Positions 46,735 through 63,096 of a DNA stretch of 64,000 nucleotides are shown here, in pieces. The notes beneath the pieces are model-generated. The model saw only the letters and a list, made by a program, of their open reading frames with translations, was not told where the DNA came from and did no database searches. Positions within the stretch are counted from its first letter, which is position 1. Every line of letters begins with the position of its first letter. Location of the stretch: NCBI RefSeq assembly GCF_007970185.1, contig NZ_CP042431.1:1736001-1800000 (forward strand). The letters are read 5' to 3'. This stretch comes from Pseudobacter ginsenosidimutans (lineage in GTDB: Bacteria > Bacteroidota > Bacteroidia > Chitinophagales > Chitinophagaceae). The position numbers were made by a program, and so were the translations under genes.

Positions 46735-49700
46735 ATGAAAAAAAATCTCTGCTTTGCCATTACTCAGCTGCAAAGCGCGCTCCGGAAAGTTTCCGGCAAT
46801 TGGCTACCAGGCCTGGTTTGGCTCCTTCTCTTCTCTGTACCGGCAGTTGCACAAACAAAAAAAATCACCGGAAAGATCACTGACGAACAAAACAAACCCC
46901 TCGAAGGGGTGAGCATCAGCGTTAGGCCCACCGGATCCGGCACTACCACCAATGCGGAAGGCGAGTTTACACTGAATGTTCCCGCTTCCGCAGAAACACT
47001 GGTCTTTTCAGCAGTTGGCTACCTGGAAAAGGAAATGACCATCGCTAACAACACTACTATTAATGTCACACTGAAAAAAGATGTGGCCGGACTGAACGAA
47101 GTAGTGGTAGTGGGCTATGGTACGCAGAAAAAAGGCAACCTCACCGGTTCCGTTTCTGTGATCGGCAGTCAACAAATTGAAAGACGCCCCAACACTTCCA
47201 CTTCAAATGCTTTACAGGGTCTTGCCCCAGGCGTTACCGTTACATCCCAGACCGGTTCTCCCGGCGGTGATGGCGGACAGATCCGAATCAGAGGCATCAA
47301 CTCCTTCGGAGGCTCCAGCAGCAACCCACTCGTGATCATAGACGGGGTGGCAGGTTCCATCGACGATATCGATGTAAACCTCATCGAGTCTGTTTCAGTT
47401 TTGAAAGATGCGGCCTCTTCCGCCATCTACGGCTCCCGCGCCGCTAATGGCGTGATCCTCATCACCACCAAAAGAGCGAAAGATAAACTGTCTGTGAACT
47501 ATAGAGGATTCGTGGGCAAACAATCACCTACGGATATTCCCAAAGTAACAGATGGCCTCACTTACATGAAGGTGTTCAACGACGCCAGCATGAACGATAA
47601 TAATATCAAGATCTATAGCGACGAAGACATTGAAGAGTTCAGAAAGAAATATGAAGCCAATCCCAAAAACTACGATTGGCAGGACGCTATCCTCGATGGA
47701 AGCGGATTAATGCAGAACCACTTCATTTCTCTCATGGCCAATAGCGGCATCGTTCGTGTGAACCCATCTTTCAGCTACACTGACCAGGAAGGCATCATCA
47801 GGAACACCAATTTCAAACGCTATATCTTCCGCAATAACCTCGATATCACTCCCAACAAACAATGGAATATCAAGGCTGACGTGTCTGTAACCAACAGGAA
47901 CAGGAAACAGATTGCCGACGAAGGCACCATCTGGAACTACCTCGGAAGGATGCCAACGAATATCCCTATCCGTTATGGCGATAAATGGTCGGACGGTTGG
48001 GTAAAGATCAATCCTGTAGGTTATATCCAGGACGGTGGAAACCGCAAGACCAATAACCTGGAGTTCTACGGTAACCTCAGCGTGAACTTCAAGCCCGTGG
48101 ACTGGCTCTCACTCACCGGTATGTTCGCGCCGCGTTACCTCACTTCCAACGTTCATACTTTCAGGAAAAGTGTACCCACTTATTATGAAGATGGGTCTGA
48201 CGCAGGCGCAGCCAACACTTTCACGGAACTCACAGAGTCCGCCATCAGGTATTTCTATGGCACTTACCAGTTCCAGGCCACAGCCCAAAAGAGTTTCGGC
48301 GATCACAACTTCAGCCTGATGGCCGGTACTTCAAGAGAAACATACGACGAAAAACTCCTCTCCGGCTACAGAAGGGATTTCGTGTACGACAATTATGAAC
48401 AACTCACCGCAGGTGCAGATGACGCAACAAAAGATAATAACGGCACCCAGAACCAATGGATCCTCATCTCAGGATTCGGCAGGTTCAACTACGATTTCAA
48501 CGGCAAGTACCTGTTTGAAGCCAATATGAGGTACGATGGTACTTCGCGTTTTGCAGGAGACAACCGCTGGGCAGCATTCCCTTCCTTCTCTGCTGGATGG
48601 GTGGTGTCTAAAGAAGACTTCTGGGATAAATTCAGTCCGGTAGTGAACATGCTGAAGATCCGTGGATCATGGGGTAAGCTCGGTAACCAGAATATCGGCA
48701 ACTCCTACTATCCTTTTGCAGAAGCCCTATCACTGAGCAGTGTTTCCATGGGAGGAAATATCTACCAGATGATCACACAGACCACGCTCTCCAATCCCAA
48801 TCTCCGCTGGGAAGAAACAGAAATGAAAGGAATTGGCTTTGATGCGAACCTGTTCAACAAATTCTCCGTAACATTCGATTACTACGATAAAAGAACAGAC
48901 GGCATCCTGCTCAAATTGAATACATCTCAACTCACTGGTCTTGCTTCGCCTTATCAGAATGCCGCAGTGGTGTCCAACAAAGGTTGGGAAGTTTCTGCCA
49001 GGTATGATAACAGGTGGGGCGATTTCCAGTTCGGTGTTGGATTCAACCTCTCCGATGTGAAGAACAAGATCATCGATATGAAAGGACAAACTTCAGGTGA
49101 TCTTCTCCGTCAGCAGGAAGGATATTCCATCAATTCTATTTATGGTTATATCGCTGATGGTTTGTATCAATCACAGGAAGAGATCAATAACGGTCCTACA
49201 CAGATCGGAACGCTGAAGCCCGGTGATGTTCGTTACAAAGACATTGCAGGAGCAACAGGTCCTGATGGCAAACCAGCGCCGGACGGCAAGATCACAGATG
49301 CAGACAAAGTGATCATCGGCAGCACCATCCCCCGTTACACTTACGGTGGTAACCTCGATCTCGGATGGAAAGGATTTCGCCTGAGCGCTTTTGTACAGGG
49401 TGTTGGAAAAGTGGATGGCTACCTGAACTCTCACTATGTGATCCCGGCCGCCAACTCCAGCGCCATCAAGCCCTGGCAGCTGGATTACTGGACTCCGGAA
49501 AATACGGATGCTGCATTGCCCCGCGTATCAGTTACTTCTACCAACAATACACAGAACTCCACTTTGTGGATGCGCAGCGCAGCTTATCTCCGTTTGAAGA
49601 ATGTTCAGCTCGGATATGAGATCCCGCAAACCATTCTGAAAAAAGTAGGCATCCAGAAAGCATTTATCTATGTGAATGGACAGAACATTTTCACCAAAAC

Positions 49701-49830
49701 CAATTTCTACGAGGGATATGATCCTGAGATCAACTTCGATGCCGGTGCATCGGATGGCGTGGCATTGGGTGGTGGAAACTTCTATCCCCAGGTTAAGGTC
49801 TTCACATTTGGTATTGACATTAAATTCTAA
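46735..49830 (+). CDS. SusC/RagA-family TonB-dependent outer-membrane receptor
   Basis: A 1031-residue receptor, first gene of the DeoR-controlled operon. It has a signal peptide ending near 'PAVAQ', a carboxypeptidase-like domain ('ITGKITDEQNKPLEGVSISV'), 'NEVVVVGYGTQKKGNLTGSV', a plug with 'PLVIIDGVAGSIDDID' and the SusC signature 'VLKDAASSAIYGSRAANGV', and a barrel ending 'VFTFGIDIKF'. It imports a large ligand with the SusD partner 5 bases downstream. The operon contents point to a polyol or sugar joined by phosphodiester bonds and not to an ordinary polysaccharide; there is no glycoside hydrolase in the operon. Confidence 0.96.
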   Translation: MKKNLCFAITQLQSALRKVSGNWLPGLVWLLLFSVPAVAQTKKITGKITDEQNKPLEGVSISVRPTGSGTTTNAEGEFTLNVPASAETLVFSAVGYLEKEMTIANNTTINVTLKKDVAGLNEVVVVGYGTQKKGNLTGSVSVIGSQQIERRPNTSTSNALQGLAPGVTVTSQTGSPGGDGGQIRIRGINSFGGSSSNPLVIIDGVAGSIDDIDVNLIESVSVLKDAASSAIYGSRAANGVILITTKRAKDKLSVNYRGFVGKQSPTDIPKVTDGLTYMKVFNDASMNDNNIKIYSDEDIEEFRKKYEANPKNYDWQDAILDGSGLMQNHFISLMANSGIVRVNPSFSYTDQEGIIRNTNFKRYIFRNNLDITPNKQWNIKADVSVTNRNRKQIADEGTIWNYLGRMPTNIPIRYGDKWSDGWVKINPVGYIQDGGNRKTNNLEFYGNLSVNFKPVDWLSLTGMFAPRYLTSNVHTFRKSVPTYYEDGSDAGAANTFTELTESAIRYFYGTYQFQATAQKSFGDHNFSLMAGTSRETYDEKLLSGYRRDFVYDNYEQLTAGADDATKDNNGTQNQWILISGFGRFNYDFNGKYLFEANMRYDGTSRFAGDNRWAAFPSFSAGWVVSKEDFWDKFSPVVNMLKIRGSWGKLGNQNIGNSYYPFAEALSLSSVSMGGNIYQMITQTTLSNPNLRWEETEMKGIGFDANLFNKFSVTFDYYDKRTDGILLKLNTSQLTGLASPYQNAAVVSNKGWEVSARYDNRWGDFQFGVGFNLSDVKNKIIDMKGQTSGDLLRQQEGYSINSIYGYIADGLYQSQEEINNGPTQIGTLKPGDVRYKDIAGATGPDGKPAPDGKITDADKVIIGSTIPRYTYGGNLDLGWKGFRLSAFVQGVGKVDGYLNSHYVIPAANSSAIKPWQLDYWTPENTDAALPRVSVTSTNNTQNSTLWMRSAAYLRLKNVQLGYEIPQTILKKVGIQKAFIYVNGQNIFTKTNFYEGYDPEINFDAGASDGVALGGGNFYPQVKVFTFGIDIKF

Positions 49831-49835
49831 GAACA

Positions 49836-51605
49836 ATGAAACGCTTTAATAATATAACAAAGATTGCGGCAGTTACTATCGGGGCCATCATCACCCTGAA
49901 TGCCTGCAAACCCGATCTTATTTCTCTCAACGGTCCATCTACCGGATCATTCCCTGCCAATGCCAAAGAAGCGGAAATGGGCTTGTTCGGTGCTTATCAG
50001 AACATCAGCAAGCTGGATGCTGCCAGCACACCGATGTGGCATGTAATGGACAATATCACTGATATTGGTTTTGCCAGACCCGGCACTAATTATACATCAC
50101 CGATCACCAGCGCTATCACAACAGACAATGCCCTGGTGAATAAACCCTGGCAGGTACATTTTGCAACCATCGCGCGTTGTCATACTGTGCTTGATAACCT
50201 GGAAAAGCTGAAAGCAAGCATGACGGAGACAGCCTATGATCAGCTGGATGCAGAGCTGCGCTTCGTGCGCGCTTACTGCTATTCTCAACTGATCGAGCTG
50301 TACGGCGGAGTACCTCTGCTCACGCATTCTGTTGACCTGAGCAATGCGAGTGTACCTCAATCGCCCAAGGCAGAAGTAGAGCAATTCATCCTGGATGAGT
50401 TGACTGCCATTGCAGATAAGCTTCCCATTTCTCAATCACAATTCGGAAATGTAAGGGCATCACGCGTAGCAGCTTACATGCTCAAAGCAAGAGTGGCGCT
50501 GTATGCAAAGAAATATAAGGACGCAGCAACAGCTGCCAATACCGCCATTTCACTTTCTGCAGGTGTGCATGATCTGACAGAATTCAACAGTACTATCAAT
50601 TATGTTGGGAAAGACCACACTGTTGGCGAGCCAGACGCGTCTAATATCTTCGGACATGCGGGATTCAAGTCCAGCAAGGAATGGATCTGGGTGGCCGAGT
50701 ACAACATGAATATTCCTGGTAACACACATAACCAGCAATACTATTCAGCATCACGTTTGGGTAAGGGTGTTTGCTACTGGGGACCCACGCAGGACCTCAT
50801 CAATACTTTCCAGTGTGATGATGGTCTGCCGATCACTGAGTCTCCCCGGTACGATGCCTCCAAACCATTTGAGAACCGCGATCCCAGACTGGACATGTAT
50901 TGCGCACGCCCGCATATGAGGTATGTAGGTTACCAGTTTGAACCAGCCACCAGCTTTCCGCAGGTAAAGAATTACTGGCCGGTGATCAATGGTACTTCGC
51001 CCACGGCGCCCAATGTAGCCAATGCAGATGCCACCAACGCTTTCAGATCTTTCAGTGGTTATCTCTGGCGTAAGCCGATCGATCTGGTTGATTTCGGTTC
51101 TACCTCTGTAAGTGGCGTATCGGATCTGAATGTAGGCATCTTCCGATTTGCTGAACTGTTGTTGTTGTATGCAGAAGCAAAGATCGAAGATAATGATATC
51201 GACTATACCGTTTATGAAGCCATCAACAAGATCCGTCGTCGTGCGAAAATGCCTGAGCTGCCCACCAGCCTCACGCAGGCTCAATTGCGCAAGGCGCTGC
51301 GCTATGAGCGCAAAGTGGAACTGGCAAACGATGGCCTGAGATGGTACGATCTCCGTCGCTGGAATATTGCCAAAACAGTCATGAACGGAGTGATCTACCT
51401 TAACAGGGATGCAAAAGCCTGGACGAAAGAAGTGATTACCGGATTCGATGAAAGCTATACACCGATCTACAATCATGCGGAAGCTGTAAAATATTTCACT
51501 ACCCAACAGGTGGTGTACCAGGAGAACAAAGATGAATTGTGGCCTGTGCCCAAATCTGAAATGGATGCCAACAAGAAGTTGGAGCAAAATCCCGGATACA
51601 AATAA
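49836..51605 (+). CDS. SusD/RagB-family nutrient-binding outer-membrane lipoprotein
   Basis: A 589-residue lipoprotein with lipobox 'TLNAC' near residue 23 and the SusD helical scaffold ('ELRFVRAYCYSQLIELYGGV', 'VYEAINKIRRRAKMPELP', 'LRKALRYERKVELANDGLRW' followed by YDLRRW). The end 'PVPKSEMDANKKLEQNPGYK' is typical. It lies 5 bases after its SusC partner and captures the ligand at the cell surface. Confidence 0.95.
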   Translation: MKRFNNITKIAAVTIGAIITLNACKPDLISLNGPSTGSFPANAKEAEMGLFGAYQNISKLDAASTPMWHVMDNITDIGFARPGTNYTSPITSAITTDNALVNKPWQVHFATIARCHTVLDNLEKLKASMTETAYDQLDAELRFVRAYCYSQLIELYGGVPLLTHSVDLSNASVPQSPKAEVEQFILDELTAIADKLPISQSQFGNVRASRVAAYMLKARVALYAKKYKDAATAANTAISLSAGVHDLTEFNSTINYVGKDHTVGEPDASNIFGHAGFKSSKEWIWVAEYNMNIPGNTHNQQYYSASRLGKGVCYWGPTQDLINTFQCDDGLPITESPRYDASKPFENRDPRLDMYCARPHMRYVGYQFEPATSFPQVKNYWPVINGTSPTAPNVANADATNAFRSFSGYLWRKPIDLVDFGSTSVSGVSDLNVGIFRFAELLLLYAEAKIEDNDIDYTVYEAINKIRRRAKMPELPTSLTQAQLRKALRYERKVELANDGLRWYDLRRWNIAKTVMNGVIYLNRDAKAWTKEVITGFDESYTPIYNHAEAVKYFTTQQVVYQENKDELWPVPKSEMDANKKLEQNPGYK

Positions 51606-51640
51606 GAAGAGTCTTTATACAGATCATTTAATTGCGTAGA

Positions 51641-52882
51641 ATGAAAACATTGCTTAGCCCTGAGAAGAGACGTTGGTTTATCGTTGCCATAATTTTCCTG
51701 GCCATAGTGTTCAACTATGTGGACAGGCAGATTGTGTCGATACTAAAGCCATTGCTCAAATCTGAGTTCAGTTTGAACGACAGCGGCTATGCATGGATCC
51801 TGAACATCTTTACCATTTGTTATGCTGTGATGTATCCTGTTACAGGATGGATGGTAGACAGATTCGGCGCGCGGTTGGTGATGTTCTGGGGAATCATCAC
51901 CTGGTCACTGGCCTGCATTGGTGGCGGCCTGTCCAGGACGATCGGACAATTCGGTTTTTTCCGCGGATTGCTTGGAGCAGCGGAGCCTACCAATTTTCCC
52001 GCCCAGTTGAAAGTAATTGCAATATGGTTCCCCGGTAAACTGCGCGCTACTGCGAATAGTCTTTGCGTAGCGGGCAGTTCTATCGGGGCCATTATCGCTC
52101 CACCCACTATTGCATGGCTCGCCATTACATACAGCTGGAAAGTAGCCTTCATCACAATGGGCGCTATTGGAATACTGATTGCCATTTTATGGAAGCTCAT
52201 CTATCGTGATCCTCCGGCGCATATCATGAAGGAAGCAACCACCTCCAGTTCCGGAGAACCAACAGCAGCATTTGAATGGAAACAGTTATGGAGTACAAAA
52301 AGTCTCTGGGGCATATTGCTGATAAGATTTGTGAGCGATCCGGTTTGGTATTTCTGTCTGTTCTGGCTGCCAGGATATTTACAGGAAGAATCCGGGCTCA
52401 CACTGGCGCAGGTTGGCATGTTCGGATGGATACCTTTCCTGTTCGCAGATGTAGGCGCCATCGGCACTTCGGCCTGGTCCGATAAACTGGTAAGAAAAGG
52501 ATACGATCCATTGAAAGCAAGAAAAGTGATGCTGACCCGTGTTGCCGTATTAAGTCCCTTATGCGCACTTACGCCGTACCTCGGTGGCGCATGGGCAACG
52601 CTGGCAGTGTTCAGTATTGTGGCCATCGCCTGCCTGAGCTGGTTGTTTACGATCAGCGTGGTAGTAGCGGAGGCTTTTCCTGTAAAGAACGTTGCCAGTG
52701 TACTCGGCATTGCCGGTGGCTTTGGCGCATTGGGCGCTGTGCTGTTCAACTACTTTGTAGGACAGTTCATGGGAACATTGGGTGCCGAAAAAATATTCAT
52801 CGCCATGGCATTCCTGCATCCATTGGCGGTATTGATCTTATGGACGATGGTGCGTCCGGAAAAACCGAAAGCAAAACCATAA
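51641..52882 (+). CDS. MFS transporter, anion:cation symporter (ExuT-like) family
   Basis: A 413-residue carrier with twelve predicted helices, from the ATG at 51641. The N-terminus 'FLAIVFNYVDRQIVSILKP' and the loop 'GWMVDRFGARLVMFWGI' match the ACS family, whose best-known members carry hexuronates, other sugar acids and organic phosphates. It should move an acidic product of the operon's periplasmic enzymes into the cytoplasm. It starts 35 bases after SusD. The exact substrate cannot be read from sequence. Confidence 0.9.
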   Translation: MKTLLSPEKRRWFIVAIIFLAIVFNYVDRQIVSILKPLLKSEFSLNDSGYAWILNIFTICYAVMYPVTGWMVDRFGARLVMFWGIITWSLACIGGGLSRTIGQFGFFRGLLGAAEPTNFPAQLKVIAIWFPGKLRATANSLCVAGSSIGAIIAPPTIAWLAITYSWKVAFITMGAIGILIAILWKLIYRDPPAHIMKEATTSSSGEPTAAFEWKQLWSTKSLWGILLIRFVSDPVWYFCLFWLPGYLQEESGLTLAQVGMFGWIPFLFADVGAIGTSAWSDKLVRKGYDPLKARKVMLTRVAVLSPLCALTPYLGGAWATLAVFSIVAIACLSWLFTISVVVAEAFPVKNVASVLGIAGGFGALGAVLFNYFVGQFMGTLGAEKIFIAMAFLHPLAVLILWTMVRPEKPKAKP

Positions 52883-52894
52883 AATATAAATCAG

Positions 52895-54283
52895 ATGATA
52901 AGAACAATCGCAGAGCCAGCCAGGGAACTCACTGTGAGAAAAGAAACAGATGTACTGGTGATTGGCGGAGGACCTTCAGGTATCATGGCTGCATTGGCGG
53001 CAGCCGAAGATGGATTGAATGTAATGCTGGTAGAGAGCCGCAGCTTCGTTGGTGGCAACATGACCATCGGATTACCCATCCTCGGATTCCTCGGTCAAAA
53101 AGGAAACCAGATCATCAAAGGACTTCCACAAAAACTGATCGACAGACTGAAAGCAGTTCAGGCTTCCAGCGAACATCGTCCATGCCCATTGCACATGAGC
53201 CTCACCCTGGTGGAACCCGAAGCGGTGAAAACAGTGGCATTGCAAATGCTGGTGGAAAGCAAGGTGGATGTATTGTTCTATGCTTTTTGCGCTGGCGTTG
53301 TGATGGAGAAAGATGAATTGAAAGGCGTGATCATTGAAAGCAAAGCCGGACGCGAAGTGATCCTCGCCAAAACTATTATCGATTGCAGCGGGGATGCCGA
53401 TGTGGCTTATCGTGCAGGCGTTCCCTGCGAATATGGCAACGAGAACGGCGGTGTTCAGCCCCCTACCCTGATGTTCTGTCTGGGTGGCGTGGATACAGAG
53501 AAACTGCGCACCAGCATTGCGAATGAACCCCGCACTTATCTTACCGATTTTATCCCCGCAGAATATTTTGGACAAAACAACCAGTTTGTACTGGTAGGTA
53601 TGCGCAACCTGATCAAACAGGCGCAGGAAGACGGACTAACACTCACCACTGAACGAACTATCCTGATCACCGGCCTGCGCAAAGGAGAAGTTTGGGTGAA
53701 CATGACGCGCGTTAGCGGCGTGAATGGTACAGATCCCGGAAGCCTTACCCATGGCGAGATCGAAGGCCGTCACCAGATCCAGGATATTCAGAAATACCTC
53801 ATCGAATACGTACCCGGATTCGAGAATGCCTACTTCCTGAAAACCGCTCCATTCCTCGGCATCAGGGAAACAAGACGTATTCAGGGACAATACACCATGA
53901 CCCGCGAAGATATCATGGCCTGCCAGCATTTTGATGATGCTATTGCAGTAGCCAGTTATCCGCTCGATATCCATCACCCTCAGGGCGGCGGTTGTACATT
54001 GGAGTGGTGTGGCGATTGTTACGATATCCCCTATCGTTCCCTCATTCCTCAAAAAGTAAAGAACCTCATCGTGGCAGGGCGTTGCATTTCCACAACACAT
54101 GAAGCAATGTCTGCGATTCGTGTTATGGCGCCTTGTATGGCGATGGGTGAAGCCGCTGGCCGTGCTGCGAAGATGGCCGTCAGACAAGGTGTTCAGCCTG
54201 CTGATATCGATGTAAAGAAATTGCAGAAAGAGCTGCTCGAAAAAGGAGCTTACCTGCGTATCGAAAAAGAACAACTCGCATAA
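52895..54283 (+). CDS. FAD-dependent oxidoreductase (PF12831-type)
   Basis: A 462-residue flavoprotein. The N-terminal Rossmann motif is 'DVLVIGGGPSGIMAALAAAE' followed by the ribose-binding Glu in 'VMLVESRSFVGGNM', and the C-terminal FAD-binding part is 'NLIVAGRCISTTHEAMSAIR'. A Cys-rich loop 'GGGCTLEWCGDCYD' near residues 367-380 could bind metal or be redox-active. There is no signal peptide, so it is cytosolic. It probably oxidises an alcohol or hydroxy acid derived from the imported compound. It lies 12 bases from genes on both sides. Confidence 0.88.
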   Translation: MIRTIAEPARELTVRKETDVLVIGGGPSGIMAALAAAEDGLNVMLVESRSFVGGNMTIGLPILGFLGQKGNQIIKGLPQKLIDRLKAVQASSEHRPCPLHMSLTLVEPEAVKTVALQMLVESKVDVLFYAFCAGVVMEKDELKGVIIESKAGREVILAKTIIDCSGDADVAYRAGVPCEYGNENGGVQPPTLMFCLGGVDTEKLRTSIANEPRTYLTDFIPAEYFGQNNQFVLVGMRNLIKQAQEDGLTLTTERTILITGLRKGEVWVNMTRVSGVNGTDPGSLTHGEIEGRHQIQDIQKYLIEYVPGFENAYFLKTAPFLGIRETRRIQGQYTMTREDIMACQHFDDAIAVASYPLDIHHPQGGGCTLEWCGDCYDIPYRSLIPQKVKNLIVAGRCISTTHEAMSAIRVMAPCMAMGEAAGRAAKMAVRQGVQPADIDVKKLQKELLEKGAYLRIEKEQLA

Positions 54284-55225: not shown

Positions 55226-56335
55226 ATGAAGAAGAGCATTTTCGGTTGTTTATTACTGTTGTTGCTGGTAAGCTCCGGCGTTTTTGCACAGGAAAAATAT
55301 CAGAAACCTGTATTGGAGCAGAAAGGTTCCTGGAGCCTGATCATGGTGCCGGATCTGCAGAACTATGTGAAATGGCAAAGGAACCAGCCATTGATAGACC
55401 TGATGATGGCCTGGATAGTGGATAATATCGATACGCTCAATATCAAGTTTGTGGTGCAGGTAGGCGACCTGGTGGAGAATGATGGAAAGATCACCAATGA
55501 TTATGATGGCGATATCACTTCCAAAGGCCAGTGGGACTATGTAGCCAAAGCCTTCAGCAAACTGGATGGCAAGGTACCTTACATCGCTGCCACCGGCAAT
55601 CACGATTATAGTATTGACAGGCTGGGAAACCGAACCTCTTTATACAGCCAATTCTTCTTTACTGAAAAGAATTTTCTCAATCAGAAATATCTCGTTCAAA
55701 ATACAAGAAATGAACAGGGGCAGCCAACCCTCGAAAACTCTGCCTACGAGTTGAAAGGATTGAATGGAAAGGATTATCTCTTCATTACAGCAGAGTACGC
55801 GCCAAGAGATACAGTGCTTACATGGGTAAAAAATGTCGCTGCGCTTCCGCAATACAAAAATCACAAAGTGATCCTCGCTACACATGAATTCCTGAATGCA
55901 AAGGACCAGCGCACAACAGGTAAACCACAATGGATCTGGTGGGAGCCATATAATGTCGACAATATGATCCAGAAGGGGCCACGCATCCCGCTTCCCAACG
56001 CCAACAACGGTCAGCAGATCTGGGAGAAAACGGTGCAGCCATCTTCCAATATCGAAATGGTATTGTGCGGCCATATCTCCGGTGAAGGTTACAGAAAGGA
56101 CAAGAATGCTGCGGGCAAAAATGTTCACCAGATCTTATTCGATGCACAATCAATGGGCGGCGGCCACCGAGAAGGTAATGGCGGCGACGGCTGGTTGCGC
56201 ATCATTGAATTCTTCCCCGACGGAAAAACTGTAAAAGTTAAAACATTTTCTCCCTTGTTCGGCATCTCGCCAACAAGCAGACCCAATGCCTGGAAGAAAG
56301 ATAACAGGAACGAGTACTCGTTTACGCTCGACTAG
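55226..56335 (+). CDS. Secreted calcineurin-like metallophosphoesterase
   Basis: A 369-residue protein with a signal peptide ('MKKSIFGCLLLLLLVSSGVF' then AQ). Metal-binding elements appear in the usual order: 'MVPDLQNYV', 'VQVGDLVEND', 'AATGNHDYS', 'ILATHEFLN' and 'VLCGHISGEGYR'. It hydrolyses phosphomonoesters or diesters using two metals. It lies between the EEP-fold enzyme and the second MFS carrier, 12 bases after the former, and probably completes periplasmic release of the phosphate or polyol. Confidence 0.92.
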   Translation: MKKSIFGCLLLLLLVSSGVFAQEKYQKPVLEQKGSWSLIMVPDLQNYVKWQRNQPLIDLMMAWIVDNIDTLNIKFVVQVGDLVENDGKITNDYDGDITSKGQWDYVAKAFSKLDGKVPYIAATGNHDYSIDRLGNRTSLYSQFFFTEKNFLNQKYLVQNTRNEQGQPTLENSAYELKGLNGKDYLFITAEYAPRDTVLTWVKNVAALPQYKNHKVILATHEFLNAKDQRTTGKPQWIWWEPYNVDNMIQKGPRIPLPNANNGQQIWEKTVQPSSNIEMVLCGHISGEGYRKDKNAAGKNVHQILFDAQSMGGGHREGNGGDGWLRIIEFFPDGKTVKVKTFSPLFGISPTSRPNAWKKDNRNEYSFTLD

Positions 56336-56365: not shown

Positions 56366-57640
56366 ATGAGAAACGAAACCATTACTAACAAATTCGGCAT
56401 CCCGCCATCACTCTTATCCGGCTACCTGGGCATCCTGTTGTTCATGATGGGAGACGGAATGGAAACGGGATGGCTGAGCCCTTATCTTTTGGAACGTGGC
56501 CTGAGCATTCAGCAGAATGCCACGCTGTTCACTGCTTACGGAGTTACCATTGCCATTGCTTCCTGGTTCTCGGGTGTGATGGCGGAATCTTTTACGCCAA
56601 AAAAAGCGATGCTGATCGGACTGCTGATTTATCTGGCAGGCACAGCCGGATTCATTGGCATCGGACTGGATAAACTGGATATGCCTGTGATGCTGATCAC
56701 TTACGCATTGCGCGGATTCGGTTATCCATTATTCGCTTATTCCTTTTTAGTATGGGTGTCTTACGTGACGCCTCCGAATATGCTGGGACGTGCCGTTGGT
56801 TGGTTCTGGTTTGTGTTCACCGGTGGATTGAATGTGCTTGGCGCCTTCTATTCCAGCTGGGCCATCCGAGAGCTCGGACATATCCCTGCTTTGTGGAGCG
56901 CCGTATTCTGGGTATTGCTCGGAGCACTGTTTGCACTGGTGCTGAACAAAGCGCCATTCAAAAGAAATGAAGATGCAAAACAGAACAAATGGAAAGAATT
57001 GATGAAGGGTCTGACCATTGTTCGAACCGAACCTAAAGTAGCACTGGGTGGAGTTGTGCGCGTGATCAATACAACAGCTCAGTTTGCTTTTCCTGTTTTC
57101 CTTCCAACTTATATGGAGGCGCATGGATTCAGCACAACGCAATGGTTGTATATCTGGGGCACCATCTTCACCAGCAATATCGCTTTCAACCTGATCTTCG
57201 GTTTTGTGGGGGACAGGCTCGGCTGGAGACAAACCATTGCCTGGTTCGGTGGAGTGGGATGTGGCATCACTACATTATTGCTCTTCTACATCCCTCACTA
57301 CACAGGCGGGAATTATTGGCTGGTAATGCTGGCCGGTATCGCCTGGGGAGCTTGCCTGGCGGGCTATGTACCGCTTTCTGCATTGGTTCCATCGCTGGTG
57401 AAAAAAGATAAAGGAGCCGCAATGGCCATCCTCAACCTGGGAGCAGGGCTGCCTGTTTTTGTTGGACCGGCAATCGTTGGTCTTTTTATCGGAAGCCTCG
57501 GTGCAGAAGGGATCATCTGGATCCTGGCCGTACTTTATTTCATCAGCGCAGTCTTGACAAGGTTCATCACTTTGCCTGATACGGATACTGATCACAAAAG
57601 CAAATTACAGGTTGCAGAGTCTTCAGTATTGCCATCATGA
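56366..57640 (+). CDS. MFS transporter, RbtT/DalT/CsbX-like (pentitol permease) family
   Basis: A 424-residue, twelve-helix carrier. The N-terminal 'ILLFMMGDGMETGWLSPYLL' and 'LRGFGYPLFAYSFLVWVSYV' match the family containing ribitol (RbtT), arabitol (DalT) and CsbX permeases. It is likely to bring a polyol or pentose released in the periplasm into the cell for the FGGY kinases encoded downstream. It is the second MFS carrier in the operon, of a different subfamily from the ExuT-like one, so two products are probably taken up. Confidence 0.88.
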   Translation: MRNETITNKFGIPPSLLSGYLGILLFMMGDGMETGWLSPYLLERGLSIQQNATLFTAYGVTIAIASWFSGVMAESFTPKKAMLIGLLIYLAGTAGFIGIGLDKLDMPVMLITYALRGFGYPLFAYSFLVWVSYVTPPNMLGRAVGWFWFVFTGGLNVLGAFYSSWAIRELGHIPALWSAVFWVLLGALFALVLNKAPFKRNEDAKQNKWKELMKGLTIVRTEPKVALGGVVRVINTTAQFAFPVFLPTYMEAHGFSTTQWLYIWGTIFTSNIAFNLIFGFVGDRLGWRQTIAWFGGVGCGITTLLLFYIPHYTGGNYWLVMLAGIAWGACLAGYVPLSALVPSLVKKDKGAAMAILNLGAGLPVFVGPAIVGLFIGSLGAEGIIWILAVLYFISAVLTRFITLPDTDTDHKSKLQVAESSVLPS

Positions 57641-57664: not shown

Positions 57665-58684
57665 ATGAGACATATGAGAGTATTGATTACAGCGCCCTAT
57701 CATGAGAAAGGTTTGTTTGATGTAAAGCAGGACCTGGGAGAAGTAATTTATCGTCCATGGAAGGAGAACGGACGGGCTTATAATGAAGATGAGCTGATTG
57801 CGCTTTTGTACGAAACTGAAGCCGAAGCACTCATCACTGAGCACGATCATGTAACTGAGAAAGTGATCAACGCCAATGCACACCTGCAATTCATTGGTGT
57901 GTGCAGGGGCACGCCTTCCAATGTTGCTGTTGCAACCGCCACCAAACATGGCATTCCTGTTTTCTATACACCCGCCCGTAATGCACAGGCAGTAGCAGAA
58001 ATGTTCATTGCCAATGTGATCACCTTTATGCGAAAAACATTGCCGGCAATCGACTGGCTGCGGGGACGCAACTGGAGCGCAGGTGCGCATACCTCTTACC
58101 TGCAATTCAAGGGAAATGAGTTGGCAGGGAAAAAAGTAGGTATGGTTGGGTTTGGCGCTATTGGTCAGTTGATCGCCAGAATGATCGAGAACTATCCCTG
58201 CTCTATCGCATACTACGATCCATATGTGAATGCATCGTCATTCCCCTCTTACCAGCAACTTAGTTTGGAAGAACTGTTCTCCACCTGTGATATCGTATCC
58301 ATTCACTTACCGGTAACGGCAGATACAAAAGGAATGATCAATGCACGACTGTTTGAATTGATGCGGCCCGATGCCATTTTCGTGAATACAGCAAGGGCGG
58401 TGGTTGTGAACAGGAATGATATGTACAGCGCTTTATCGCAAAACAAGATCAAAGGCGCCATCCTTGATGTGTTCGATAACGAGCCTCCGGATGAATTGGA
58501 TTATAAGATCATCGATCTGCCGAATGTATTGCCTACACCGCATATTGCCGGCGCTACGCATGAAGTGGAAGATCATCACGTGCGCATTCTCAATGAGGTG
58601 CTGGTGGAATGGTTTGTTCATGGAAAGCATAGTGCAGAGCGTCTGGCCAATAAGGAAATATTATCATCGTATATTCAACGATAA
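57665..58684 (+). CDS. D-isomer-specific 2-hydroxyacid dehydrogenase, NAD-binding
   Basis: A 339-residue protein (an alternative ATG at 57674 gives 336 residues). The NAD fold is 'GKKVGMVGFGAIGQLIARMI' (GxGxxG), and the catalytic triad of the family is visible: Arg in 'FVNTARAVVVNR', Glu in 'LDVFDNEPPD' and His in 'PTPHIAGATHE'. It interconverts a 2-hydroxy acid and its 2-keto acid. Fit with the FAD oxidoreductase and ExuT-like carrier suggests that part of the pathway runs through a sugar acid. It ends 12 bases before the first FGGY kinase. Confidence 0.92.
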   Translation: MRHMRVLITAPYHEKGLFDVKQDLGEVIYRPWKENGRAYNEDELIALLYETEAEALITEHDHVTEKVINANAHLQFIGVCRGTPSNVAVATATKHGIPVFYTPARNAQAVAEMFIANVITFMRKTLPAIDWLRGRNWSAGAHTSYLQFKGNELAGKKVGMVGFGAIGQLIARMIENYPCSIAYYDPYVNASSFPSYQQLSLEELFSTCDIVSIHLPVTADTKGMINARLFELMRPDAIFVNTARAVVVNRNDMYSALSQNKIKGAILDVFDNEPPDELDYKIIDLPNVLPTPHIAGATHEVEDHHVRILNEVLVEWFVHGKHSAERLANKEILSSYIQR

Positions 58685-58696
58685 AAAAATTGAAAG

Positions 58697-60151
58697 ATGA
58701 AACAACAGGATGCATACCTGGTGCTTGATATCGGTACTGGCAATGTGCGATCTGCTATCGTAACGCCGTCAGGTAAAATACTGGGAGTAGCGAGAGCCGA
58801 TATCCGATATTATCGCGATGAGCTTTACCCCGATTCCATTTATTTCAAGCCTGAAGAGCTCCGGGAACAACTCAAGCAACTGACTGCACATGCATTGCAG
58901 CAGGCTGGCGGCGTGAATATTACAGCCGCTACCACCACCAGCCAACGGGAAGGGATTGTGTTGGTGGATAAATCCGGCAAAGCCGTGATAGGTCTGCCAA
59001 ACATTGATCATCGTGGCCGCGAATGGGAAAATCATTTTCCGGACAAGAGCAGGATCTATCAATTGACTGGCCGTTATCCTACTTCCTTATTCTCTTCCTA
59101 CAAACTGGTAGGGATACAAAAAAAGAGAAAAGAGATCTGGAATGAGTTGAACTTCTTTCTCAGCATCAGCGATTGGGCCGCCTGGGAATTGAGTGGAATA
59201 GCAGTATACGAGCATTCGCAGGCATCTGAAACTTTGTTGTATGATGTAGCTGCGGGTAAATGGAGCGAAGAACTCTGCAGCATGTTTGGCATTGCCCAGG
59301 AGTTGTTACCGCCACTTTCTCAATCAGGTTCATTGATTGGAAAAGTGAAAAAAGAGATTGCTGAAGGCTGGGGAGTCAACGCACTCGCTGAGGTTGTTAC
59401 CGGCGGTGGCGATACGCAGATGGCGATCAAAAGCACAGAGCCCTCTGTTGGCGATGTGGTGATCGTTTCTGGGACCACTACACCGGTGGTAAAACTCGAA
59501 GGATCTTATATCACTGATACAAAAGAAAGAACCTGGACCAGCAGGGATATCGTAAAAGACAGGTTTGTATTTGAAGCCAATGCCGGCGTTACCGGTTTGA
59601 ACTATCAGCGTCTCAAGGAAGTATTCTATCCGAACGAAGGCTATGATGTGATAGAGCGGGAACTGACAGAAACGGCCAGTAAAAAATGTGTGGCGAGCCT
59701 GGGCTCGCTGATTGCGGGCGAAACAAAGCCGGTGACCTGGGGAGGGTTCGTGTTTCCGGTTCCGGTTTCGCATGAGCTGAGCCGTGGGAGTTTCGTTTGG
59801 GCTACACTGATGGATATTGCATTTTCCATTGCAGAGAATTATAAAGTACTGGCAGAAGTATCTGGTCATGATGCCGGGTATATCTGGGCCTGTGGCGGCG
59901 GATTACAGAGCCGGACCCTGCGCAAACTGATTGCCGTTATCACCGGGAATGAAGTAAGGGTGAAAGCCGGATTTGAGCAGGCGTCCGTTATTGGCGCCGC
60001 TATCCTTTGTAATGAAGCAAACGGAGTTGTTGTAGAAAGAGAAGAAGCAAAACAAGAAAGCTCGGTGGCTGCTGGATGGGATAAAGGCGAGATAGAAAAA
60101 TATTATGAACAATGGAAAGCAACAAGAGAGCAGTTCAGGGCTGTCAGCTAA
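58697..60151 (+). CDS. FGGY-family carbohydrate kinase (first of two)
   Basis: A 484-residue kinase with both actin-like lobes: phosphate-1 motif 'YLVLDIGTGNVRSAIVTPSG', the central 'VTGGGDTQMA' and 'VSGTTTPVVKL', and the adenosine loop 'WACGGGLQSRTLRKLIAVIT'. FGGY kinases phosphorylate pentuloses, polyols and related sugars; this sequence is not close enough to a named one for me to give a symbol. It is followed by a second, clearly different FGGY kinase. Confidence 0.93.
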   Translation: MKQQDAYLVLDIGTGNVRSAIVTPSGKILGVARADIRYYRDELYPDSIYFKPEELREQLKQLTAHALQQAGGVNITAATTTSQREGIVLVDKSGKAVIGLPNIDHRGREWENHFPDKSRIYQLTGRYPTSLFSSYKLVGIQKKRKEIWNELNFFLSISDWAAWELSGIAVYEHSQASETLLYDVAAGKWSEELCSMFGIAQELLPPLSQSGSLIGKVKKEIAEGWGVNALAEVVTGGGDTQMAIKSTEPSVGDVVIVSGTTTPVVKLEGSYITDTKERTWTSRDIVKDRFVFEANAGVTGLNYQRLKEVFYPNEGYDVIERELTETASKKCVASLGSLIAGETKPVTWGGFVFPVPVSHELSRGSFVWATLMDIAFSIAENYKVLAEVSGHDAGYIWACGGGLQSRTLRKLIAVITGNEVRVKAGFEQASVIGAAILCNEANGVVVEREEAKQESSVAAGWDKGEIEKYYEQWKATREQFRAVS

Positions 60152-60163
60152 ATTGATGTGAAC

Positions 60164-61606
60164 ATGAGTGAAGCATATTTTATTGGGATCGATATTGGCA
60201 CCCAGGGTGCAAGAGTAGTGATGCTGGATGAAACCGGCCGGCAGTTGGGAGCGAAAGAAGAAGTGTTCCCATTGACAGAAGATTCACGCGAAGAACAATC
60301 GCCTGAACTTTGGTGGGAATGCTGTTGCAGATTGATCCCTGCTTTGGTTAAAGAAGTAAAGGACCAGGCTCCAATGGAAAAGATAAAAGCTGTTGCCGTT
60401 ACTTCTACTTCCGGCACCATCATTCCATTAGACCAGGATTTCAATCCTTTACACAATGCGATCATGTACAGCGATCCGCGTTCTGCTCAGCAGGCATCAT
60501 TCTGTAAAGCAATAGCAGAAAAAAATGTACAGGAAGGATATACGGCATTCAATGCATCCAGCGGATTACCCAAGATGCGTTGGTTCCTGGAAACATGCCC
60601 GGAAAAAACAGAACAACTGTACAAATTCATACATGCATCGGATTTCATCACCGGAAGATTATCCGGTCAGTATGATATAACCGATTATACCAATGCTATG
60701 AAATCAGGCTATGATCTTCATAAGGATCAATGGCCGGGCTATATCGCAGAGCAGATCGGTATTCGCCGCGAGTGGTTGCAGGAAGTGAAACCTTCCGGAG
60801 AGCCGATCGGAGTCATCCGGAAAGAACTGGCCAAACAATTTGGACTTCCGGAGACTCTTATTGTAACAACTGGCATGACTGACGGCTGTGCCTCACAGGT
60901 AGCATCAGGTGCAGTTAGCCCGGGCCAGTGGAATACCACTATCGGCACTACACTGGTGATCAAGGGCGTTACCAAACAATCTGTGAATGATCCGTCGGGA
61001 GCCATTTACAATCATCGTCACCCTGCCGGTTACTGGATGCCTGGCGGCGCCAGCAATACCGGCGCTGATTGGGTAAGTAAATTATTTGGCGGCCAGGATT
61101 TGCAGAACTTAGGCAAAGAGGCAGCGTTAAGATTGCCTGCTGCTTCATTGGCCTGGCCTTTATTACAGAAAGGTGAAAGGTTTCCGTTTGTTTCGCCACA
61201 GGCTGTTGGCTTCTGGCCTGAAGGAGATGAAGTGGAGAAGTTCACTGCATGCATGGAAGGTGTGGCGTTCATAGAGCGGTTCGCTTATGAAAGGATTGCA
61301 TTATTGTCAGGCGAAAAAATAGAAAAAGTATTCTCTGCCGGAGGCGGCAGTAACAGTGATACCTGGTTGCTGATCAGGAGCAGTGTACTGAAGGTACCTG
61401 TCTGCAAAATGAAGAATGTATCAGGTGCGGCAGGCGCAGCTATCCTGGCTGCATCACGAAGTTATTATGATGGGCTGCAATCCGCTGCTGCCGCGATGGT
61501 TACTCCGGAATTGACTGTACAGCCATCACCTGAGTTAGTAAACGCCTACGATCAGAAATACAAATTGTTTATTGAAGAATTACAAGCAAGAAAAATATTG
61601 AACTGA
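60164..61606 (+). CDS. FGGY-family carbohydrate kinase (second of two)
   Basis: A 480-residue kinase from the ATG at 60164 (an in-frame GTG lies at 60158). It shows 'GIDIGTQGARVVMLDETG', 'TTGMTDGCASQVASGAV', 'QWNTTIGTTLVIKGVT' and 'FSAGGGSNSDTWLLIRSS', the usual FGGY elements, with the catalytic Asp in 'GMTDGC'. It shares little sequence with the kinase before it, so the pair probably acts on two different substrates and is not a recent duplication. Its product is a candidate effector for the DeoR regulator. Confidence 0.93.
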   Translation: MSEAYFIGIDIGTQGARVVMLDETGRQLGAKEEVFPLTEDSREEQSPELWWECCCRLIPALVKEVKDQAPMEKIKAVAVTSTSGTIIPLDQDFNPLHNAIMYSDPRSAQQASFCKAIAEKNVQEGYTAFNASSGLPKMRWFLETCPEKTEQLYKFIHASDFITGRLSGQYDITDYTNAMKSGYDLHKDQWPGYIAEQIGIRREWLQEVKPSGEPIGVIRKELAKQFGLPETLIVTTGMTDGCASQVASGAVSPGQWNTTIGTTLVIKGVTKQSVNDPSGAIYNHRHPAGYWMPGGASNTGADWVSKLFGGQDLQNLGKEAALRLPAASLAWPLLQKGERFPFVSPQAVGFWPEGDEVEKFTACMEGVAFIERFAYERIALLSGEKIEKVFSAGGGSNSDTWLLIRSSVLKVPVCKMKNVSGAAGAAILAASRSYYDGLQSAAAAMVTPELTVQPSPELVNAYDQKYKLFIEELQARKILN

Positions 61607-61608
61607 AC

Positions 61609-62208
61609 ATGCTGAAGATCTTCTTACTCAGACACGGTGAAACAACCTACAATGCAGATAATAACCGCTATTGCGGAAGAACAGATATCCCGCTCACGGA
61701 AAAGGGAGTAAAGCAGGCGGAAGAAGTGAAAAGGCAACTGGAAGGGATCGAATTTACCGCAGTATATTCTTCGCCTCTCCAACGCGCATATACAACCGCA
61801 AAGATAGCTTCCGGCAAAGATCCTATAAAAGATGAACGACTGATCGAAGCAGACTTCGGTACCTGGGAAGCAAAAACAAAAGAAGAGTTCATTGCGGAGA
61901 ATGAATCGTTGTGGCTGGACTGGATGCACAATCCGGCAATCTATCGCGCAGGCGGAACGGGAGAAACAGGAGCTGAGATCGTAGCCAGGGTAGATGATTT
62001 CTTTCAATCACTACAACAAACCTATTCAGAAGGGAATATCATGGTAGTGGCGCATAATGGCATCAACCGATTATTCATGGCGCATAAATTAGGTATGCCT
62101 TTAAAGAACTACCGGCAGTTGGTGCAGCAAAACTCATCTATCACCTGCTTCACACTTGATAAGAACGGAACGCTTACGCTGGAATTACTCAATTCAAAAC
62201 TTCGGTAA
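61609..62208 (+). CDS. Histidine phosphatase (phosphoglycerate-mutase-like) family protein
   Basis: A 199-residue cytosolic protein. The phospho-acceptor His9 lies in 'FLLRHGETTYNADNNRYCGR' and the second His in 'MVVAHNGINRLFMAH'; an acid/base Glu is in 'LIEADFGTWEAKT'. It removes phosphate from a small phosphorylated metabolite. It starts 2 bases after the second kinase and ends directly before the GDPD gene, with no gap. In the pathway it may dephosphorylate an intermediate or overflow product. Confidence 0.92.
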   Translation: MLKIFLLRHGETTYNADNNRYCGRTDIPLTEKGVKQAEEVKRQLEGIEFTAVYSSPLQRAYTTAKIASGKDPIKDERLIEADFGTWEAKTKEEFIAENESLWLDWMHNPAIYRAGGTGETGAEIVARVDDFFQSLQQTYSEGNIMVVAHNGINRLFMAHKLGMPLKNYRQLVQQNSSITCFTLDKNGTLTLELLNSKLR

Positions 62209-63096
62209 ATGAAAACATTCTTGTTGGGAATTGTTGCTTCAATGGCCGCACTGTTAATGGCTTCAACCGGTTCTGCCCAGTTGAAAACGATAAAAGTGAA
62301 AACGCCTGCTGACCTCCATGGATTTTTCCATTATTCGGGAAAAGAAAAAAAGATCATCAGCGGGCACAGAGGAAGTTACCTGACCGGTTATCCTGAAAAT
62401 GCGATCGAGACTTTCGAGTACGTGTTGAAGCATACCCCGGCCTTTTTTGAAATAGACCCGCGCCTGACCAAAGACAGTGTGATCGTGTTGTTGCATGATG
62501 CCACTTTAGACAGGACCACCACCGGAAAAGGAAAACTTGCAGATTACACCTGGGAAGAAGTAAAACAATTACGGTTAAAAGATAAAGATGGAAATGTAAC
62601 ACCATACCGTATCCCAACACTGCAGGAGGCAATCGACTGGGCCCGTGGAAAAACCATTCTCAATCTGGATAAGAAAGATGTACCAATGCAAATGACAGCG
62701 GATATCATTCGGAAAAATAATGCAGGCAGCTTTGTGATGGTGACCGTACACAATGCCAAACAGGCGAAATTTTATTTTGATGATGATAACCAGCGGATGA
62801 TGTCTGCTTTTGTAAAAACAGAAGACGCTCTAAAAGAATATGAAGCTGTTGGCCTGCCCTGGAAGAATATGATCGCATACATAGGTTCAGAGAATAAACC
62901 AGCCAATAAGACCATGTTTGATCTGCTGCATGCACGCGGTGTGATGTGCATGATCTCAGCAGCGCCGGTATATGATAAGTTGGAAACTAAGGAAGAACGT
63001 GCCGCGGCATTTCGGGATATTTTCAAACAAGGTGCAGATATTCTGGAATCTGATCTGCCGGTTGAAGTAGCGGAGGCTGTAAAAAGTAAACGTTGA
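62209..63096 (+). CDS. Secreted glycerophosphodiester phosphodiesterase
   Basis: A 295-residue protein with signal peptide 'MKTFLLGIVASMAALLMAST' then GSAQ. The GDPD catalytic set is complete: His53-Arg54 in 'ISGHRGSYLTG', Glu63-Asn64 in 'YPENAIETF', Glu81 and Asp83 in 'FEIDPRLTKD', and His96-Asp97 in 'LLHDATLDRTTTGKG'. It cleaves glycerophosphodiesters to glycerol phosphate and an alcohol; related GlpQ enzymes also trim teichoic acid. It begins immediately after the histidine phosphatase stop, is the last gene of the operon and is followed by a terminator at 63121. Confidence 0.94.
   Translation: MKTFLLGIVASMAALLMASTGSAQLKTIKVKTPADLHGFFHYSGKEKKIISGHRGSYLTGYPENAIETFEYVLKHTPAFFEIDPRLTKDSVIVLLHDATLDRTTTGKGKLADYTWEEVKQLRLKDKDGNVTPYRIPTLQEAIDWARGKTILNLDKKDVPMQMTADIIRKNNAGSFVMVTVHNAKQAKFYFDDDNQRMMSAFVKTEDALKEYEAVGLPWKNMIAYIGSENKPANKTMFDLLHARGVMCMISAAPVYDKLETKEERAAAFRDIFKQGADILESDLPVEVAEAVKSKR

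Follow-up and report, generated by a model that had tools for sequence, protein, structure and literature searches.

Organic phosphodiesters, among them teichoic acids and glycerophosphodiesters, are large pools of phosphorus and carbon in soil. The described systems closest to the locus analysed here are the SusCD polysaccharide utilisation loci of Bacteroidota, the ribitol/D-arabitol (rbt/dal) and tetritol operons, the lsr (autoinducer-2) operon, teichoic acid turnover of the GlpQ/PhoD type and a DHAP-shunt-like operon of Enterococcus raffinosus p1_Er676. Like the SusCD loci, the present operon of Pseudobacter ginsenosidimutans combines adjoining SusC and SusD, exported enzymes, carriers and kinases; unlike them, it has no glycoside hydrolase, lyase or other CAZyme among its 12 genes by family profiles, as the preliminary description had stated for hydrolases and lyases, and its SusCD is optional in relatives. 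In open-licence PubMed Central, we found neither a description of this operon nor a SusCD locus for organic phosphodiesters. Price et al. 2022 (PMC9007349) mention Pedobacter; FGGY, xylitol, sorbitol, arabitol and 2-hydroxyacid are absent from the main text of that paper.

In the window (the whole 64,000-nucleotide stretch that was analysed), positions 46735–63096 hold 12 same-strand (+) ORFs with intergenic gaps of 0–35 bp according to the ORF list, which bears out the tight twelve-gene operon proposed earlier. It opens with the importer that had also been reported, namely SusC, a TonB-dependent transporter (46735–49830; PF07715, PF13715, PF00593), and a SusD-like surface lipoprotein (49836–51605; PF07980, 161 bits). 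These are followed by an ACS/ExuT-type MFS carrier (51641–52882; PF07690), whose best model, TIGR00893, gave 216 bits and did not reach the cut-off of 395; we set its start at 51641, where the ORF list has a TTG start at 51632 instead. Next come a FAD-dependent oxidoreductase (52895–54283; FAD_oxidored PF12831, 437 bits), an EEP-fold phosphoesterase (54296–55213; PF03372, 57 bits) and a calcineurin-like phosphoesterase (55226–56335; PF00149, 28.9 bits against a cut-off of 21.5; no NCBIfam match). The remaining genes encode an RbtT/DalT/CsbX-family carrier (56366–57640), a D-2-hydroxyacid dehydrogenase, HADH (57665–58684; PF02826, PF00389), the LsrK/XylB-like FGGY kinase 1, FK1 or FGGY1 (58697–60151; PF00370, PF02782), the AtXK-1/SePSK-like FGGY kinase 2, FK2 or FGGY2 (60158–61606; 5htr 181 bits, 5htn 162 bits), a CobC/PspA-like histidine phosphatase, HP (61609–62208; PF00300, 182 bits), and a glycerophosphodiester phosphodiesterase, GDPD (62209–63096; PF03009, 80.8 bits). 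The two kinases are thus unlike each other, as had been noted. By eye, the N-termini of EEP (twin-arginine type), the calcineurin-like protein, GDPD, SusC and SusD fit export, and those of HADH, FK1, FK2, HP and the FAD protein, which appears cytoplasmic, do not indicate it.

The preliminary description did not mention a divergent gene on the minus strand (45560–46327) that encodes a DeoR/AgaR-type regulator (PF00455, 158 bits; PF08220), scoring 223.5 bits with the AgaR model, under the cut-off of 260. Between it and the operon lies a candidate operator (46438–46497, unstranded) of tandem repeats (TTTAATxxxx) about 10 bp apart, with the best match at 46458–46484. At three mismatches or fewer, the pattern has a single match in the whole 7.8-Mb genome, before the core operon, and none in 100 shuffles of the window; the repeats are conserved across DeoR upstream regions. 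At two mismatches, 8 of 16 genomes give any match. Those in G077 and G245 lie off the operon and two of those in G022 equal its two control matches, so we treated them as chance; the operon site of G077 (L051) was detected by a weight matrix. A promoter-like TACATTTG (TAnnTTTG; 46488–46495, + strand), which we take to be the Bacteroidota -7 element, stands where the repeat array ends; the evidence for it is weak, as 9 of the 44 regions have it where 2.07 would be expected. DeoR presumably represses the operon. At the gathering threshold, one tRNA was all that a search for RNA regulators returned in the window, L064, L101 and L144, so a known riboswitch is absent there.

We compared 80 named loci chosen by FGGY1. 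The order RbtT-HADH-FGGY1-FGGY2-HP was collinear in 70 of them, with GDPD next after HP in 64; a few of the other 16 are truncated or below threshold. DeoR was present in 62/80, on the opposite strand in every case. Because three loci (L055, L057 and L058) keep all 12 genes collinear, the gene order is not due to chance. The stable unit is nevertheless DeoR with the divergent RbtT-HADH-FGGY1-FGGY2-HP-GDPD, and the exact 12-gene set amounts to a local combination. The core is preceded by SusC and SusD in just 10 of 79 chains, and this pair is a dispensable, optional add-on in relatives; in one relative, ExuT, the FAD oxidoreductase, EEP and the calcineurin-like gene form an operon of their own that includes a separate GDPD. 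The idea of one dedicated SusCD locus therefore has to be given up. EEP and the calcineurin-like gene adjoin in only 9/80 loci. No locus with the exact set has been described as far as we found, but what relatives conserve is the unit of six genes. Since the same candidate operator precedes both the core and, in one relative, the separate second-module operon, the two modules are, judged by this shared site, one regulon.

The core half is found again in many relatives and, in a similar form, outside the phylum: a Streptomyces locus (L144) carries a corresponding set of six families and no SusCD; the second FGGY there is not closely related to FGGY1, and no GDPD was found within the 21-kb stretch. 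Some relatives carry added GH106 or sulfatase genes, GH106-like sequence occurring in 16/80 loci. Among 46 extra chain neighbours scanned, we observed GDPD three times, a purple acid phosphatase N-domain twice and PF01663 four times, of which at least the one in L061 is a sulfatase. L061 also has a second EEP. In Niabella, a lipoprotein stands in place of GDPD (predicted structure, mean pLDDT 37.2).

GDPD (nearest structure 3mz2; 337 bits, E 9e-100) is a stable, co-inherited member of the unit, its distances correlating with those of the core genes (Spearman 0.51–0.83, 48 loci). We looked at the neighbours of ten further GDPDs of the same subfamily at other loci. In three cases the cluster also contains a mannitol/arabitol-dehydrogenase-like gene, which adjoins GDPD in L155, is separated from it by one PfkB gene in L166 (a locus of this same genome) and lies about 7 kb away in L156; this supports a polyol-like headgroup released from a phosphodiester. 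In L161, GDPD occurs with RbtT, a glycerol-1-phosphate-dehydrogenase-like gene and a HAD phosphatase, and in G022 it sits inside an ExuT operon. Five of the ten have no recognised polyol gene nearby, which counts against a polyol. The carrier is RbtT-like as claimed before (TIGR00897, 554.6 bits against a cut-off of 375), and the named TIGR00897 members are pentitol carriers. It is 39–65% identical to the 40 best plasmid records listed. Three of its five nearest plasmid relatives (65%, 54% and 52%) belong to ADH-RbtT-DhaKL operons with an RpiB-type isomerase inside or adjoining, presumably for tetritol catabolism; the other two sit among other genes, again to the disadvantage of a polyol. FK2 gave 204 bits with the XylB model (cut-off 380) and is nearest to AtXK-1/SePSK in the PDB; SePSK phosphorylates D-ribulose, according to an excerpt of PMC4880283. 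Human FGGY, for which PMC4873967 cites weak ribitol kinase activity as unpublished data, sets an example of a polyol kinase within the FGGY family.

Taking together the gene content, the conservation, the shared operator, the co-inheritance of GDPD and its clusters with polyol-dehydrogenase-like genes at some other loci, all observed directly, the best explanation, to which we give close to an even chance, is that a DeoR-controlled operon frees a polyol-like headgroup, most likely C4–C5, from a phosphodiester and then catabolises it. What each enzyme does, the sequence of steps, the substrate, the direction in which HADH works and the parts played by HADH and the two kinases are inferred from the protein families, and so is repression by DeoR. 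On the outer side of the inner membrane, GDPD would cut the diester and remove phosphate with the help of EEP and the calcineurin-like enzyme, and SusCD, where present, would import a larger form of the substrate. The freed alcohol would enter through RbtT. An anionic product accompanying it would enter through ExuT and be oxidised by the FAD oxidoreductase. Inside the cell, FK1 might phosphorylate the alcohol or its ketose, HADH perform an NAD-linked redox step, FK2 produce a phosphorylated ketose (a pentulose phosphate, for example) and HP strip misplaced phosphate. The predicted FAD oxidoreductase structure (mean pLDDT 65.6) matches general FAD folds only and so offers no hint of a substrate. 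The nearest PDB entries of EEP are 3g6s, 3l1w, 3mpr and 4c1r; among the matches listed, the sole close relative with a functional name is the mannosyl-6-phosphatase 4c1r (E 1e-22), and EEP may be a phosphomonoesterase. Of the three exported phosphodiesterases first proposed, the export-type N-termini and the families stand, but not the assumption that all are of the phosphodiesterase type.

We counted the TIGR00897 membership, the co-variation and contexts of GDPD, the shared operator and the FK2–SePSK likeness for a polyol, which leaves the phosphodiester-to-polyol theme in place, though not teichoic acid in particular. Against it stand the Streptomyces locus without a nearby GDPD, the lack of any known polyol-family dehydrogenase among the 12 genes, and the lack in all 80 loci of homologues of the mannitol-DH, Zn-ADH, DhaKL and RpiB of the comparison operons, mannitol-DH-type genes occurring at other loci only.

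HADH itself points to a different substrate. Its Arg244-Glu273-His293 and R81-x-x-P84-x-N86 signature are invariant in 18/18 aligned sequences; the former, which we take to be the catalytic set of D-2-hydroxyacid dehydrogenases, occurs here with the NAD domain PF02826 and would favour an acid over a polyol. The compound imported by RbtT might then be a keto-acid, an aldonate or of the 5-deoxy-pentulose type; HADH would reduce or oxidise it at the 2-position and the FGGY kinases phosphorylate it, with GDPD merely releasing it; we consider this sugar-acid or deoxy-sugar core unlikely. FK1 is nearest to LsrK (5ya0, 106 bits) among solved structures, and HADH-FGGY pairs occur near mtnK/mtnA and mtnB genes, that of Klebsiella within methionine-salvage genes, which also speaks against a polyol. 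In B. subtilis, YoaC is an FGGY kinase and YoaD a HADH, in an operon under a SAM riboswitch. This pair has no assigned function in PMC2885750, where its annotators guess that it acts on glycerate. However, the RbtT family and some GDPD contexts indicate polyols, and the FGGY proteins of Klebsiella and S. atratus are only 23–28% identical to FK1, so these pairs may act on another substrate. MtnK, MtnA and a class II aldolase are present in L135 (DHAP shunt), but homologues of its MtnK, MtnA, FucA-type (class II) aldolase and Fe-ADH were found neither in the operon nor in any of the 80 loci (E 1e-10), which also counts for the polyol. The GlpK Arg-Glu and Asp residues given in a portion of PMC3245297 align with FK1 R84, E85 and D239 (the alignment leaves the Tyr135 position ambiguous), and this agreement does not choose a substrate.

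Strict teichoic acid use, a special case of the polyol pathway in which GDPD and the calcineurin-like enzyme cut a ribitol- or glycerol-phosphate wall polymer and ribitol is consumed, had been put forward first and now seems quite improbable. A GDPD predicted to be secreted (PF03009, export-type N-terminus), SusCD and the likeness of FK2 to a D-ribulose kinase agree with it, and PMC7086022 describes GlpQ as a glycerophosphodiesterase whose substrates are teichoic acids of the phosphoglycerol type. Nothing indicates it in particular: known ribitol dehydrogenases are absent from the 12 genes, SusCD and the EEP–calcineurin pair are as infrequent as described above, L144 has no GDPD within its 21 kb, and the GH106 or sulfatase additions of relatives, GH106 at least, are unexplained by plain ribitol phosphate. 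Slightly less probable still is a nucleotide cofactor or sugar nucleotide dismantled by EEP, calcineurin and GDPD-type enzymes, its pentose part passing to FK2. In Niabella L130, an operator match is followed by an exported nucleoside-hydrolase-like gene (PF01156); another such gene adjoins ExuT in L046, and a homologue occurs in L121, whose chain after GDPD includes a PfkB kinase. But the hydrolase gene was seen in just two of the 80 named loci and in L046, and the PfkB kinase in one chain (once among the 46 scanned neighbours). That the three exported phosphoesterases of one operon merely scavenge phosphorus is most improbable, given that the genome has a single DeoR-linked operator site and that the operon also contains cytoplasmic carbohydrate genes.

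Beyond the polyol reading itself, a rather doubtful but broader proposal is a new pathway, common in outline to Bacteroidota and Actinomycetota, in which a HADH of a distinct R-x-x-P-x-N clade, two unlike FGGY kinases and HP would convert a polyol or its phosphate to a central sugar phosphate with no dedicated isomerase or aldolase encoded; one kinase would place a phosphate, and HP would remove phosphate once the other kinase has done its part. In Bacteroidota, one DeoR operator would tie in exported phosphoesterases, the polyol being drawn from a phosphodiester polymer or headgroup. If confirmed, the six genes would be a marker for organic phosphodiester use in soil Bacteroidota, the operator would allow the regulon to be read in relatives, HADH, FK1, FK2 and HP would be directly assayable enzymes, and function could be assigned more readily to the HADH-FGGY pairings, which are met repeatedly across several phyla.

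Compared with the other known systems, the operon shares with lsr the FK1–LsrK likeness and, unlike lsr, has no further lsr-type gene among its 12; membership was rejected, as FK1 and FK2 reach 142 and 130 bits with the LsrK equivalog model against a cut-off of 528, and the likeness is kept as a lead for FK1. With GlpQ/PhoD-type turnover it has in common the GDPD fold and a calcineurin-like phosphoesterase, whereas its GDPD is nearest 3mz2, its calcineurin-like protein matches PF00149 weakly and a sugar pathway is attached. The E. raffinosus operon, which counts against the polyol reading, has adjoining HADH (40.5%) and FK1 (32.7%) relatives in the same order with DeoR divergent ahead; unlike the operon here, it carries an NhaC-like carrier, aldolase, Fe-ADH, MtnK and MtnA, and its 25-kb stretch gave no match to FK2, HP, RbtT or GDPD. 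The rbt/dal and tetritol operons share the RbtT-family carrier and, in L139, a DeoR regulator; homologues of the L139 DhaK, DhaL and RpiB are absent from the operon and from all 80 loci. In place of their SDR or mannitol-type polyol dehydrogenase, Zn-ADH, DhaKL and RpiB, the operon described here has HADH, two FGGY kinases and HP.

We found that the twelve-gene, same-direction operon of the preliminary description (46735-63096) was borne out by open reading frames and family searches, with gaps of 0–35 bp. On this strand the genes run SusC, SusD, an ExuT-like carrier, a PF12831 FAD oxidoreductase, EEP, a calcineurin-like phosphoesterase, RbtT, a D-2-hydroxyacid dehydrogenase (HADH), two FGGY kinases (FK1 and FK2), a histidine phosphatase (HP) and a glycerophosphodiester phosphodiesterase (GDPD). 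A divergent DeoR gene (45560-46327) lies ahead of them. The operon end was placed at GDPD, because a gap of 177 bp follows it, and then a sigma factor gene (starting at 63274) and a further TonB-plug protein of the SusC type. The first metal motif of the calcineurin-like protein (55226-56335) apparently starts, by eye, with D-L-Q and not with D-x-H, the usual start in such phosphoesterases. Another SusCD locus of the window, at 32109-41120, carries DUF5017, GH88 and heparinase II/III-like genes. As the preliminary description had supposed, no account of the operon was found in the literature, where mainly open-access papers were searchable.

Next, the conservation of the operon was surveyed. 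Of 244 genomes in the family, 16 had RbtT (TIGR00897 above cut-off), this 7.8-Mb, one-contig genome among them; RbtT was also present in 3 of 395 of the phylum sample and in 1 of 295 in the order of genome G894. It was accompanied by HADH, FK1, FK2 and HP in 15 of 16 loci (15 other family loci and that of genome G245), all except L053, a short contig. An FK1-alignment search gave 138 relatives in named genomes, and the best 80 were analysed; in this set FK1 is present by construction, only the closest relatives are represented and loci truncated by contig ends are counted in. The named locus closest by FK1 is that of Pseudoflavitalea rhizosphaerae (94%). By genus name all 80 are apparently Bacteroidota, bar one record labelled Williamsia, which we take to be mislabelled as it sits among Chitinophagaceae.

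The operon is modular. Among the best 80 of 138 loci, RbtT-HADH-FK1-FK2-HP is collinear in 70, GDPD follows HP in 64 and DeoR is present in 62, on the opposite strand every time. ExuT and the FAD oxidoreductase are neighbours in 21 of these loci, the oxidoreductase and EEP in 19, and EEP and calcineurin in nine. Same-strand SusC-SusD pairs over the score thresholds occur in nine, seven of them within 8 kb upstream of RbtT; at any score, both precede HP within one chain in 10 of 79 chains (L060 gave no chain). Full twelve-gene collinearity was seen in three of the 80. Where all seven genes could be called (48 loci), correlations of GDPD distances with core-gene and DeoR distances range over 0.51–0.83, and those within the latter group over 0.40–0.74, kinship being ignored in both.

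The regions upstream of DeoR contain a candidate operator, made of tandem repeats with a spacing of about 10 bp. Its consensus, at up to five mismatches, matched 44 of 60 DeoR-upstream regions, the same from which it had been read off, versus 3 of 1200 mononucleotide-shuffled regions. The window match (46458-46484, no mismatch) is the sole site in the genome at up to three mismatches. A leave-one-out matrix gave 62 matches scoring at least 20 in the 1.63 Mb of the 80 loci, less independent than they appear as the set holds close relatives, and dinucleotide shuffles of the same 1.63 Mb gave none. Near DeoR, RbtT, ExuT or SusC (−150 to +700 bp of the gene start) lay 61 of the 62; 54 loci had a match beside one of these genes and 26 had none at this score. 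With a stricter pattern (two mismatches), a site was found at the operon in just 6 of 16 genomes. In genome G022, an ExuT-FAD oxidoreductase-GDPD-EEP-calcineurin operon at 1.44 Mb stands apart from the core at 2.49 Mb, and the operator precedes both; two further matches there equal in number its two control matches. Four Sphingobacterium loci (L106, L109, L113 and L122) have one site ahead of ExuT and a second ahead of RbtT. The operator ahead of both modules in G022 and the paired sites in Sphingobacterium indicate that the two modules form one regulon, also where they are separated.

Hints on the substrate were sought in the relatives of the individual proteins. For RbtT, the surroundings of its five nearest relatives from the plasmid collection were read: three belong to ADH-RbtT-DhaKL operons (L139, L142 and L143), one lies beside a PTS, a xylulokinase and an ADH (L140) and one close to pyruvate-dehydrogenase-type genes and an FGGY kinase (L141). 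FK1 is nearest to LsrK and FK2 to AtXK-1/SePSK; SePSK reportedly phosphorylates D-ribulose (PMC4880283). HP is similar to the CobC and PspA phosphatases, EEP is nearest to 3g6s, 3l1w, 3mpr and the mannosyl-6-phosphatase 4c1r, and GDPD is close to 3mz2.

Searches for the same GDPD subfamily in 296 and 345 genomes gave matches in 4 and 8, own genome and core loci counted, and the surroundings of ten copies outside the core unit were read. A mannitol-dehydrogenase-family gene is in the same cluster in three of the ten, adjoining GDPD (L155), with one gene between (L166) or about 7 kb away (L156); the top match of these genes is D-arabinitol 4-dehydrogenase, under its cut-off. One copy (L154) is that of the G022 ExuT operon, and five (L159, L160, L162, L163 and L164) have no recognisable polyol gene nearby. 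In L161 (5744-11198), a DeoR gene borders a compact, kinase-free operon that consists of GDPD, a glycerol-1-phosphate-dehydrogenase-like gene, a gene for a HAD phosphatase and an RbtT 66.5% identical to that of the window. A second SusC-bearing locus of the own genome, at ∼3.198–3.212 Mb (L165 12003-20000 and L166 1-5756), has two GDPD genes, an Rbs-type ABC transporter, a mannitol/arabitol-dehydrogenase-like gene and a PfkB kinase, and is perhaps another phosphodiester-linked polyol locus.

We also scanned 46 of 75 extra chain neighbours, some outside the operon proper, with 25 of 52 matched families listed. Among the matches listed, GH106 accounts for nine of the 46, PF01663 for four, sulfatase and GDPD for three each, the purple acid phosphatase N-domain for two and PfkB for one. 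Homologue searches found GH106-like sequences in 16 of the 80 loci. A GH106-type alpha-L-rhamnosidase lies close to the core in Niastella, Niabella and others (L077 14818-17850), so the substrate of those loci may include rhamnose. A conserved lipoprotein of ∼396 aa replaces GDPD after HP in L117, L119, L124, L130 and L131, and likewise takes its place in L046 and L049; the two copies scanned had no Pfam match. A myo-inositol-1-phosphate synthase gene convergent with DeoR, identified by the scan of L086 (5316-6542), belongs to a gene cluster that recurs in seven of the best 80 of 138 loci. None of the 80 loci had homologues of MtnK, MtnA, aldolase or Fe-ADH (queries from the Enterococcus raffinosus operon L135), of DhaK, DhaL, RpiB or Zn-ADH (queries from L139), or of two mannitol-dehydrogenase genes and the L161 dehydrogenase.

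Most of this evidence fits a DeoR-controlled system in which a polyol-like moiety would be freed from a phosphodiester and then catabolised. We give this reading slightly less than an even chance, because the HADH triad, the DHAP-shunt neighbours and the nucleoside-hydrolase-like gene point elsewhere. Teichoic acid, one of the candidates in the preliminary description, is only one possible source. The Arg244-Glu273-His293 triad of HADH, invariant together with R81-x-x-P84-x-N86 in 18 of 18 aligned proteins (13 sampled among the available Bacteroidota sequences, the other five belonging to Bacillota, Actinomycetota and Pseudomonadota), and the DHAP-shunt neighbours of the E. raffinosus HADH/FK1 pair speak for an acid or deoxy-sugar rather than a polyol. 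The substrate may also be a nucleotide, as a nucleoside-hydrolase-like gene occurs at a few loci (2 of 80 by homologue search). Exported inosine-uridine nucleoside-hydrolase-like genes were seen in L130 (5789-6811, after an operator match) and L046 (14970-15965, adjoining ExuT), with a homologue also in L121.

Counterparts of core genes were found beyond the Bacteroidota. Streptomyces sp. KN37 (L144) has HADH-HP-FK2-FGGY next to DeoR and RbtT; its 21-kb stretch gave no match to GDPD or SusCD. The order in Streptomyces sp. BHT-5-2 (L145) is DeoR | RbtT-FGGY-FK2-HP-HADH. In Streptomyces NBC_01727 (L146) it is FGGY-HADH | HP-DeoR-FK2; RbtT has no match there, and ∼6 kb off lie a gene of the GDPD family and a sugar ABC transporter. 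Identities to the window are 45–49% for RbtT (L144 and L145), 32–36% for HADH, 35–36% for FK2 and 29–37% for HP. The other FGGY kinase of the three loci matches FK2 (23–26%) and not FK1, so it is equated with FK1 by position only. In Klebsiella (L136 9887-13029), mtnB, an FGGY kinase and HADH stand in a row within a methionine-salvage cluster. The DHAP-shunt-like operon of E. raffinosus resembles the operon of the window in its adjoining HADH (40.5%) and FK1 (32.7%) and its divergent DeoR gene; an NhaC-like carrier stands ahead of HADH/FK1 there, and aldolase, Fe-ADH, MtnK and MtnA come after the pair.
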